NCBI RefSeq assembly: GCF_014217805.1
Contig: NZ_CP055156.1
Span: 1,426,001-1,490,000 of the forward strand
Length of the DNA stretch: 64,000 bases
Origin: Adhaeribacter swui
GTDB taxonomy: Bacteria; Bacteroidota; Bacteroidia; Cytophagales; Hymenobacteraceae
Direction of reading: 5' to 3'
The translations under genes were made by a program, and so were the position numbers. Every line of letters starts with the position of its first letter. Positions within the stretch are counted from its first letter, which is position 1. Positions 268-42,215 of this stretch are shown in pieces. The notes under the pieces are model-generated. The model did not search any database, was not told the DNA's origin, and saw only the letters and a program-made list of their open reading frames with translations.

Positions 268-713
268 AAAGCTCCCCTCCTGTTTTAGGATGGGTTGGGG
301 GTGGTAAAATTTACTTTTATTTCCCCCAATACCGCTGCCAATTGTTCAAATACATCCTTATTCTCAAATCGTAGCACTTTAATATTTAAATTTTTTAAAA
401 ATTTTGTTCTCTCCTCGTCCCGTTCAAAACCGTTATCTGTAAAATGGTCTTTCCCATCTAGTTCAATCGCTAGCTTTTCTTCCGGGCAGTAAAAATCCAG
501 AATATACTTATTAACGCTGTGTTGTCTTCTGAATTTCCTTCCAAGTTGACCGTTCTTTAAATGCTTCCATAATTCAGCTTCGGCTGGGGTTAAATTACTC
601 CGGTTCTGGCGGCGCAGATTTTTTAAATTTTGCTGGTTATGGATACGTTCTAGCATCTTCATCTGTCTTAGTCAACCACCCCTAACCCCTCCTTAGCCAA
701 GGAGGGGAGCTTT
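268..713 (-). mobile_element. DUF559 unit: nuclease gene between inverted palindromic ends
   Basis: The left end (268-305, AAAGCTCCCCTCCT then GTTTTAGGA) and the right end (675-713, the same palindrome inverted, with CCTTAGCCAAGG in its centre) enclose the DUF559 gene with almost nothing else. Both ends point their GGGGGTGGT tails inward. The gene's stop codon lies inside the left palindrome and its start codon is about 13 bases from the right one. A second, decayed copy with matching left- and right-specific ends is at 41886-42215, which shows the unit as a whole has been duplicated. There is no transposase. Calling it mobile is an inference from two copies. Confidence 0.7.
285..662 (-). CDS. 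DUF559 family protein (PD-(D/E)XK / Vsr-like endonuclease fold)
   Basis: This 125-residue protein has the DUF559 pattern. A basic N-terminus with R-x-x-Q-N and LTPAEAELW is followed by RKFRRQHSV, then DFYCPEEKLAIELDG, in which the Asp and the E-L-D-G motif match the catalytic positions of the PD-(D/E)XK/Vsr-like fold, and a C-terminal VLRFENKDV strand. It is full length for the family. The last residues (FTTPNPS) are encoded by the flanking palindrome, so gene and repeat form one unit. There is no methyltransferase or specificity subunit nearby, which argues against a restriction system. It interrupts the otherwise co-directional tubulin-like cluster. Nuclease activity is family-based inference. 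Confidence 0.85.
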   Translation of the reverse strand: MKMLERIHNQQNLKNLRRQNRSNLTPAEAELWKHLKNGQLGRKFRRQHSVNKYILDFYCPEEKLAIELDGKDHFTDNGFERDEERTKFLKNLNIKVLRFENKDVFEQLAAVLGEIKVNFTTPNPS

Positions 714-788: not shown

Positions 789-829
789 AAGTTCCCCTCC
801 TTGGATAAGGAGGGGCAGGGGTGGTTGAC
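789..829. repeat. Solo right-end palindrome of the DUF559 unit
   Basis: The sequence is a CCCCTCCTTGGATAAGGAGGGG hairpin followed by CAGGGGTGGTTGACT. It is the inverted form of the right-end type seen at 675-713 and 42177-42215. It stands alone, 75 bases from the intact unit's right end and in the opposite orientation. Confidence 0.75.
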
Positions 830-894
830 TTTTAGTTATTCTCTATGTCCATTTTTATATCTCTAAGCTTACCTTTTACAGCCTTAATCTCCCC

Positions 895-19196: not shown

Positions 19197-19907
19197 GCTT
19201 TTCAAGCCTCCAGGCTGCGGTGCTAACTAACTTGCTGGCTACAAGTTTTGCCTCGTGGCCGGCGGACTCGTTTAGCTCTCTCGCACTCGCTAGACTCCCT
19301 TTCCTCGACTCCGTCTGCGGAATTTTGCTGCGCAAAACCGGAACCCTAGCAGGTGCTCAATAGCTAAACTGGTGTCAGTCGCTAGTAGTTAATAAAATTG
19401 CCTTTTTTGGTAAGAAAATCTTATTTGGAGAGTAAATCAAATTGTGCTACAGGTAATAAGGTAAAAGAACTTTATGAATTTAGCTAATTAAGCATAGCTT
19501 ATAATAAAGTAATAGGACAGAATTAAATATTCATTTTCCTGGTAGGTTTAATAAAAAACAACCACCCCTACCCCTCCTAAACTTAGGAGGGGAGCTTTTA
19601 CCTCCAACTTATCCTATATATTTTAATTTGTCCATTTACTTAAGATGATAACATCAATCAGTCTTGGTTGGTATAAAACAAAAAACTATACCTGCAAAAT
19701 TGGTAATAACTGCAGCTAAGAATAACTAACACCAGTTTAGCTATTGAGCACCTGCTAGGGTTCCGGTTTTGCGCAGCAAAATTCCGCAGACGGAGTCGAG
19801 GAAAGGGAGTCTAGCGAGTGCGAGAGAGCTAAACGAGTCCGCCGGCCACGAGGCAAAACTTGTAGCCAGCAAGTTAGTTAGCACCGCAGCCTGGAGACTT
19901 GAAAAGG
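19197..19907. mobile_element. 711-bp element with ~179-bp near-identical inverted arms, no gene
   Basis: The arms at 19197-19375 and 19729-19907 are reverse complements with only a base or two different near the outer ends. They share the stretches GCCTCGTGGCCGGCGG, CTCTCGCACTCGCTAG and GACTCCGTCTGCGG. The core of about 350 bp is AT-rich, has no ORF and contains one CTCCCCTCCT-type palindrome. The layout is that of a MITE or of two inverted copies of one repeat. Solo relatives are at 24257, 25788 and 29085. Confidence 0.8.
19521..19642. repeat. ~120-bp repeat with CTCCCCTCCT palindrome core, copy 1
   Basis: The palindrome ACCACCCCTACCCCTCCTAA...TTAGGAGGGGAGC is flanked by sequence that also matches 28894-29010 in inverted orientation (AAATTAAAATATA, AAGTTGG, GAATGAATATTTA). 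Its centre differs from the DUF559-unit ends. Confidence 0.75.
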
Positions 19908-28893: not shown

Positions 28894-29010
28894 TAAGTAG
28901 ACAAATTAAAATATACAGGACAAGTTGGGGTAAAAGCTCCCCTCCTAAGTTTAGGAGGGGCAGGGGTGGTTGTTTTTTTTATTAAAGCAGCGACCGGAAT
29001 GAATATTTAT
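28894..29010. repeat. ~120-bp repeat with CTCCCCTCCT palindrome core, copy 2
   Basis: It matches 19521-19642 inverted, both in the palindrome (CTCCCCTCCTAAGTTTAGGAGGGG) and in the flanks on both sides. It lies just after the SDR stop and could act as its terminator (hairpin, then TTTTTTTT). Confidence 0.75.
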
Positions 29011-29084
29011 TTTCGACCAGGTACTTACTGATATTACTTGGAGCCGGTTCCCGTCTCCATTTACTGGTCCCAACGTATTTGAAC

Positions 29085-29222
29085 GGGCTGAGTTTGCCTC
29101 ATGGCCGGCGGGCCTCATTTGGCTCTTTCGGGCTGTCTAAGCTTCCTTTCCTCGTACCTCGGAATTCTGCTGCGCAGATCCGGAACCTTAGAAGGCCCTC
29201 AATAGCCAAACTGGTGTCAGTA
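29085..29222. repeat. Solo copy of the ~190-bp dispersed repeat
   Basis: GTTTGCCTCATGGCCGGCGG, TTGGCTCTTTCG, TTCCTTTCCTCG, CGGAATTCTGCTGCGCAGA and CAATAGCCAAACTGGTGTCAG follow the order and orientation of the left arm at 19197-19375. Confidence 0.75.
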
Positions 29223-29330
29223 ACGCTTAGCTACGGTTGATGTTTGTCTTTCTGCCTTTAGGAAATTTTTGAATTTGTTAATTGATGAATTAGTAACATG
29301 AACTTTTAGATTTAATCAGCAGAAGATAAG

Positions 29331-41885: not shown

Positions 41886-42215
41886 AAAGCTCCCCTCCTG
41901 CTTTAGGAGGGGTTGGGGGTGGTAAACTGGGCGGTGACTTCCGCTGAATCCTCTTCTAACTGCTCAAATACCCCTTCATGTTAAACCGTAGCAACTCTAT
42001 ATTATAAATTTTTAAAAATTTTATTTTCTCCTGAGTTTAATACCAATAAAGTAAGTTTACCCACCTAATTCAATTGCCCGCTTTAGCAGGATTTAAGTTG
42101 TTGCGTTTCTGGCGGAGTAGATTTTTAAATTTTTCTGATTGTGGTTACGTTCTTGCATCTTCCACTGCTATAGTCAACCACCCCCAACCCCTCCTTATCC
42201 AAGGAGGGGAGCTTT
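41886..42215 (-). pseudogene. Decayed DUF559 unit between galK and galT
   Basis: The ends 41886-41923 and 42177-42215 match the left and right ends of the intact unit almost base for base. Between them about 250 bases align with the DUF559 gene: the stretches at 41975-42040 (C-terminal end) and 42100-42165 (N-terminal end, CTGGCGGAGTAGATTTTTAAAT) are clearly related, while roughly 100-120 bases of the middle, including catalytic sequence, are missing or unrecognisable. No ORF survives. The same orientation relative to the host operon as at 268-713 is noted. Confidence 0.78.

Follow-up and report, generated by a model that had tools for sequence, protein, structure and literature searches.

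The closest described counterparts of the locus studied here are the REP/RAYT systems (REPtrons, BIMEs, REPINs), in which small tagged hairpins occur genome-wide, singly or as inverted dimers, and bracket the gene of a DNA-processing enzyme, the HUH tyrosine transposase RAYT. Palindromic DNA lying in frame within conserved genes is a property of the Rickettsia palindromic elements. For the CGTC-tagged REPs, no dedicated transposase was found (Di Nocera 2013); the available sections of that paper place them in Bacteroidetes among other phyla, describe an 8- to 9-bp stem with A/T first pairs and a CCA tail, and leave DUF559 unmentioned (PMC3733652). The EDxHD homing endonuclease I-Bth0305I carries an added DNA-binding region for a long target site, according to the accessible part of the source (PMC3943268).

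In the window (the whole 64,000-nucleotide stretch of Adhaeribacter swui DNA analyzed here), a DUF559 gene of 125 amino acids is flanked at 268-713 by two inverted hairpin-plus-tail repeats (Table 1). As in a REPtron, the enzyme gene is bracketed by cognate dispersed palindromic repeats, but the enzyme is an EDxHD/Vsr-fold nuclease, and the GTAG tag of REPtrons is absent beside the window hairpins, the DUF559 repeats having a G-rich tail. Moreover, whereas tnpA_REP is mostly single copy (available part of PMC8266576), genomes often hold several DUF559 genes, and one genome holds two copies of one unit. The catalytic domain is related to that of I-Bth0305I by profile and fold, but the DUF559 protein is short (domain at residues 13-117 of 125) and has no such added region. 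Unlike free-standing homing genes, the unit has palindromic ends, shows no intron or intein and occupies many sites rather than one cognate allele. It shares its fold with Vsr and the DUF559 domain with Caulobacter VsrA, but is bracketed by repeats. The window repeat differs from CGTC-tagged REPs in lacking the CGTC, the described stem with its A/T first pairs and the CCA tail, and the DUF559 family differs from Rickettsia palindromic elements in including a nuclease gene, sometimes between repeats inside a host gene. Since its proposed way of working is that of REPtrons and of homing genes, each of which nevertheless has a defining feature that it lacks, we file it under the REP-plus-enzyme kind. 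We propose that the window unit probably belongs to a widespread kind of selfish REP-like element, made of an EDxHD/Vsr-fold nuclease gene and its own family of hairpin/G-rich-tail repeats.

In each window repeat, AAAG is followed by a C/T-rich and a G/A-rich arm, separated by a small loop, and then by a G-rich tail (GGGGTGGT). A preliminary description had proposed a gene enclosed by inverted palindromes, with its stop codon inside one of them and with two distinct centers. This holds in detail: the outer 15-bp arms are exact inverted copies (267-281 and 700-714, CAAAGCTCCCCTCCT and AGGAGGGGAGCTTTG), the TAA stop (285-287) lies within the loop of the left palindrome, and the centers are GTTTT on the left and TTGGCTAA on the right. 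The ATG (660-662) is located ~8 nt away from where the right tail ends, and both tails are directed into the gene. One pair of the left hairpin is broken here (AGGATGGG, against AGGAGGGG in the sister genome G009), and when folded as single-stranded DNA the right hairpin is better than its shuffles (z -2.2) and the left one is not (z -0.1). The only further open reading frame of at least 50 amino acids inside the unit runs antisense to the DUF559 gene. The decayed copy of the whole unit is likewise confirmed. The tail-outward dimer that the right repeat forms with a third unit had been overlooked.

Table 1. Coordinates of the DUF559 unit and of related repeats in the window
Feature	Position	Strand	Remarks
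DUF559 nuclease gene (PD-(D/E)XK, Vsr/EDxHD-like)	285..662	-	125 aa, intact; PF04480 97.6 bits; model pLDDT 89; dN/dS 0.035
Repeat unit, gene 3' side	268..305	+	AAAG + hairpin 274-294 + G-rich tail; holds stop codon
Repeat unit, gene 5' side	671..713	-	AAAG + hairpin 686-707 + tail into gene; center TTGGCTAA
Third repeat unit	789..830	+	tail-outward dimer with 671-713; dimer also in sister G009
Solitary repeat unit	19559..19598	-	center TAAGTTTA
Solitary repeat unit	28933..28972	+	center TAAGTTTA
Decayed whole copy	41886..42215	-	330 bp; both ends intact, DUF559 remnant broken

In a Pfam scan of the unit, DUF559 alone passed its cut-off (20.6 bits). The structure model matched, in Foldseek, the DUF559 structure 3hrl and I-Bth0305I (E 5.8e-4, probability 1.00; profile search E 1.9e-4) and, weakly, Vsr (1vsr, probability 0.97 but E 0.077). 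Codon comparisons indicate that the DUF559 protein is under purifying selection and is kept working, because dN/dS was 0.03-0.24 in 12 of 13 pairs (the other pair was saturated); between the window gene and that of G009 it was 0.035, with dS at 2.27. One DUF559 gene has already been filed as EDxHD homing-type in a cyanobacterial paper (available part of PMC9403480). In the accessible portions of the open-access PMC literature, we found no paper tying DUF559 to palindromic or inverted repeats, transposable repeats or in-frame insertion. Assignment to a defense system was rejected, PADLOC giving merely weak hits, as was membership in an Rfam family, the search giving just two sub-threshold miRNA matches.

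The association of DUF559 with repeats was surveyed at loci taken from the matches listed for the genus (6/8 genomes with a match), the family (176/200) and the phylum (170/296), those fetched being part of these matches and mostly the strongest. Our script aligned the upstream and downstream flanks of the domain (350 bp each) with one another, at a threshold score of >=16. Among 167 loci, 158 were usable (9 were dropped because the flanks were short, the profile hit was weak or the locus was a duplicate), comprising 125 stand-alone genes and 33 domains within longer reading frames, to which 20 embedded loci were added later (53 in total). A matching repeat was found on both sides of 103/125 stand-alone genes (family 44/50, phylum 59/75) and 38/53 embedded copies. 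The remaining 22 stand-alone and 15 embedded copies had no matching pair at threshold; at least four of these stand-alone misses (L034, L045, L118, and L125) visibly carry repeats and others, e.g., L001 and L037, do not. With 3/41 ordinary window genes and 8/125 flank pairs mixed between loci scoring as controls, DUF559 is associated with matched repeats. Low control rates, together with copies lying inside coding genes and similar units at unrelated places, make it very improbable that DUF559 has an ordinary Vsr-like role in repair or restriction and that its palindromes are terminators or generic repeats accumulating between genes, even though the right palindrome scores terminator-like, the window unit stays at a single locus and a Vsr-like repair function has been argued for Caulobacter VsrA (available part of PMC12907096). 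Generic terminators were rejected on the same grounds.

The repeats do not lie at random distances from the gene: where the inverted pair was strong (inverted score >=20; 101 loci), their median distance from the domain was 100 bp on the upstream and 44 bp on the downstream side. Their orientation follows no single rule. Among the 103 stand-alone positives, 82 had inverted and 64 direct pairs, some having both, and direct alignment was better than inverted in 52 of the 134 loci scoring >=20, often with a whole dimer on each side of the gene. Inverted ends, a feature of the preliminary description, thus do not hold in general, and "always inverted" was rejected as a description of the family. 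Its inward-pointing tails are true of the window unit and fail as a general rule: when tail direction was judged crudely, from the count of C minus G in the aligned segment, the 70 stand-alone units among these 101 had tails out in 32, in in 26 and balanced in 12, and the 31 embedded units had tails out in 25, balanced in 6 and in in none. Such a majority of tail-outward units (57/101) would be expected if DUF559 were a homing gene targeting the spacer of a pre-existing REPIN-like dimer, so that the flanking repeats would be the target and lie outside the element. Gene-less tail-outward dimers indeed exist (L299, L300, L304, L305, and L312), one of the genus genomes (G003) having a gene-less dimer at the window site where others hold DUF559. 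The tail-inward stand-alone units, however, misfit insertion into a tail-outward spacer, and together with the evidence from insertion sites given below they make this alternative quite improbable. In three of these dimers (L304, L305, and L312), of P1 type, the spacer holds a second palindrome (e.g., GTCACGGAAGTAAATCCGCGCC) like the repeats beside RAYT genes, two repeat systems thus being nested in one another.

The favored reading, in which gene and repeats move as one element, draws on units found at unrelated sites. Similar units (85-98%) occur in unrelated flanks, and their homology does not extend past the outer ends of the palindromes, in several cases with the edges AAAG..CCCC and GGGG..CTTT; this speaks against repeats that are merely a pre-existing target. 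Two loci from MAGs titled as two phyla (L223 and L226) have 464 bp in common at 98% and differ in their flanks; contamination could still account for their likeness, though the surroundings differ. One genome contains two copies at 85% (L118 and L127), and the same break at the palindromes is seen for L125/L137 (86%) and, at the left end, for L242/L263 (89%).

Sister genomes, eight of the genus including this one (G000), provided presence/absence comparisons. In the methionine synthase gene (MetH) of G003, a DUF559 unit separates the B12-binding cap from the cobalamin domain, replacing ~25 nt of native linker, and it is absent in 6/6 aligned sisters (G034 lay outside the alignment); the reading frame stops shortly past the insert. 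By eye, its junction peptides resemble those of MetH inserts in two g6 genomes, which would fit co-conversion. In the methylmalonyl-CoA mutase of the same genome (L303), a lone in-frame repeat adds a net 24 nt, with ~15 nt replaced, and is absent in 7/7 others; this repeat, of 36-39 nt, has no stop codon in any of the six frames. In these two cases, we saw no clear target-site duplication, ~25 and ~15 nt of host loop having been replaced, and no target motif was found at the insert sites. The aligned sisters have no dimer at either site, which again argues against a dimer as the target. Altogether, in this handful of cases, sequence comparison demonstrates that gene and repeats occur as a unit at unrelated places and are present or absent between sisters. 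The precise empty sites that the preliminary description named as support do not hold as a general rule, since ~15-25 nt of host sequence is replaced and, at the site of the decayed copy, the left edge is messy.

At the window site, comparable in 7 of the 8 genomes, four (G000, G009, G014, and G019) keep the window unit, and in all four the palindromes are retained along with DUF559 rather than the gene being conserved without them. The other three hold a different DUF559 with different palindromes (G024), a gene-less P2-like dimer (G003) and a remnant (G029). The window copy is an old resident of its site in the genus and not a recent arrival; its conservation at a single locus, with dS above 2 to G009, speaks against the favored reading. 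Three genomes, including G003 and G024, share the decayed unit with nearly intact ends at its site. G009 lacks it; as its left edge is unclean, we rejected this as a precise empty site. In G014, G019, G029, and G034, the left flank alone matched, and no unit was present within the 420 bp inspected. The earlier idea of one inseparable element is supported as to a unit that recurs across families and phyla, at unrelated places and missing from some sisters.

Within the genus, repeat types P1 and P2 follow the nuclease with exceptions. P2 occurs at 11 sites in G003, 2 of them flanking its DUF559 gene, and at none in the seven other genomes, a co-occurrence that comes from one genome among eight. 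P1 repeats are absent from both genus genomes without DUF559 (one being only 78% complete), and G024 has 16 P1 repeats and no P1-type DUF559, and hence repeats either outlive the gene or move without it. This last genome is what one would expect if the repeats were non-autonomous palindromes moved by another enzyme (RAYT/HUH or some other), with DUF559 as caught cargo. RAYT-like Y1_Tnp genes are available in 8/8 genus genomes (27 matches), and the P1 dimers with a RAYT-type repeat in their spacer point the same way. Nevertheless, 0 of the 26 RAYT loci with readable flanks carried P1 or P2, many having other inverted repeats, which led us to reject RAYT as the mobilizer; P2 was found only where its DUF559 is present; and the bracketing of one nuclease family by unrelated repeat types in many clades is unexpected for random cargo. 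We regard the cargo explanation as unlikely.

This bracketing extends well beyond the genus. The wider set contained the best 80 of 558 genome-collection relatives and 3 viral contigs (83 loci), of which 77 had enough flank and 59 scored for matching repeats. Repeats wholly different between clades fill the same role: CTCCCCTCC-loop-GGAGGGG in the genus of the window (g1), CCCCCTCCT-loop-AGGAGGGGG in g3 and CCCCCTCTCC-loop-GGAGAGGGGG in g5. Of 18 loci that lie outside Bacteroidota or lack a group name, 15 scored in one or other orientation; by record title, these include Nitrospinota, Thermodesulfovibrionales, Acidobacteria, Beta- and Gammaproteobacteria, Rhodothermota, Chlorobiota, Akkermansiaceae, and Moraniibacteriota, and the repeats recur in loci titled as at least eight phyla besides Bacteroidota. 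Two Doudnabacteria loci (L282, score 14, and L289, score 12) fall below threshold with visible hairpins, and no hairpin was seen in the flanks of a Nitrosovibrio locus (L288). Among plasmid and phage records (11 read of 39 with a match), 7 scored. Six of these (three cyanobacterial, two alphaproteobacterial and one from Deinococcus) carry a hairpin on either side, and the seventh is a phage contig in which the matching sequence is not a hairpin; two Synechocystis loci have one hairpin per side and score only 10-13, and Azospirillum and Photobacterium loci have hairpins on one side only. On the plasmids of Synechocystis sp. B12 (L396 and L397), the hairpin-flanked DUF559 genes have DUF1156 and PglX methyltransferase-type reading frames nearby and look as if inserted in or between them. 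In 11/50 family stand-alone loci (e.g., L018, L047, and L076), CGTCAGG stands directly 5' of the hairpin, a tag that suggests that some DUF559 repeats may be relatives of the CGTC-tagged REPs.

Embedded copies place the same nuclease inside host proteins. By Pfam, DUF559 lies in frame in MetH and LeuRS (two positions each), HsdR, HsdM, UvrD helicases, a MeaB-mutase fusion, a type ISP enzyme, an N6/N4 methylase, an Eco57I-type enzyme and, at the end, GATase_5 proteins, which we take to be of the PurL type; among the 17 proteins scanned, one (L024) gave no host domain. Many host junctions read as translated repeats (e.g., SPRERGQGGE), and in no host type do all copies lack a matching repeat pair. 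The embedded copies without a matching pair include 3/4 LeuRS copies (L088, L091, and L344) and 4/8 internal MetH copies. In a quick tree of the 167 domains, same-host copies cluster (17 changes versus 44.2 for shuffles), and host-linked inheritance of embedded DUF559, rather than fresh insertion, is therefore likely to be common. With its few columns and long branches, this tree shows clustering only; Pfam supplied the host labels of 16 rows, and motifs or junction peptides judged by eye those of the rest, L008 and L010 being assumed to belong to the PurL group.

We propose a model in which DUF559 itself could drive the spread of the unit by cutting and repair. The nuclease would recognize its own repeat, as a duplex or as an extruded hairpin, and would cut near the repeat or in a target loop; repair of the break would then copy the unit or the repeat into it, a short stretch of the target being replaced. 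The gene would thus spread with its repeats as a homing endonuclease does with its own gene and as REPs are thought to do with RAYTs, and decay of the gene with retention of the ends would give REPIN-like leftovers. Gene-less repeats, either solitary or paired as inverted dimers, do occur at other places in these genomes. More tentatively, DUF559 and its clade-specific palindromes might represent a separate and ancient class of mobile elements, in at least nine phyla by record title, in which the nuclease mobilizes its own REP-like repeats, intergenic as well as in-frame, independently of HUH enzymes. If true, an enzyme would be supplied for G-rich-tailed REP families, and perhaps for some CGTC-tagged ones, hitherto without one, and clade-by-clade co-occurrence of nuclease and repeat would offer a directly testable candidate for the repeats that RAYTs leave uncovered. 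Moreover, the fields of homing endonucleases and REP elements would be joined, the DUF559 domains in MetH, LeuRS, HsdR, and UvrD would be inserted selfish DNA instead of functional fusions, and the annotation of the very common "endonuclease domain-containing protein" family would change.

Beside the unit, the repeat motif is dispersed in the window and in the genome. The motif CTCCCCTCCT occurs at 9 window sites with at most one mismatch, versus 1.64 expected, and exactly at 29 genome sites, versus 1 for the reversed control; this abundance is not due to chance. A second DUF559 gene of this genome (L001, G000:C3:2067818-2071129) and its relative in G003 (L037) are without matching palindromes and may be domesticated or belong to a different lineage; a repeat resembling those beside RAYT genes (GCCAATCTCTGATTGGC) is located downstream. 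Longer dispersed repeats (e.g., CACCAGTTTAGCTATTGAGCACC near 19700) adjoin the solitary P1 units at window positions 19300-19900 and 28990-29240.
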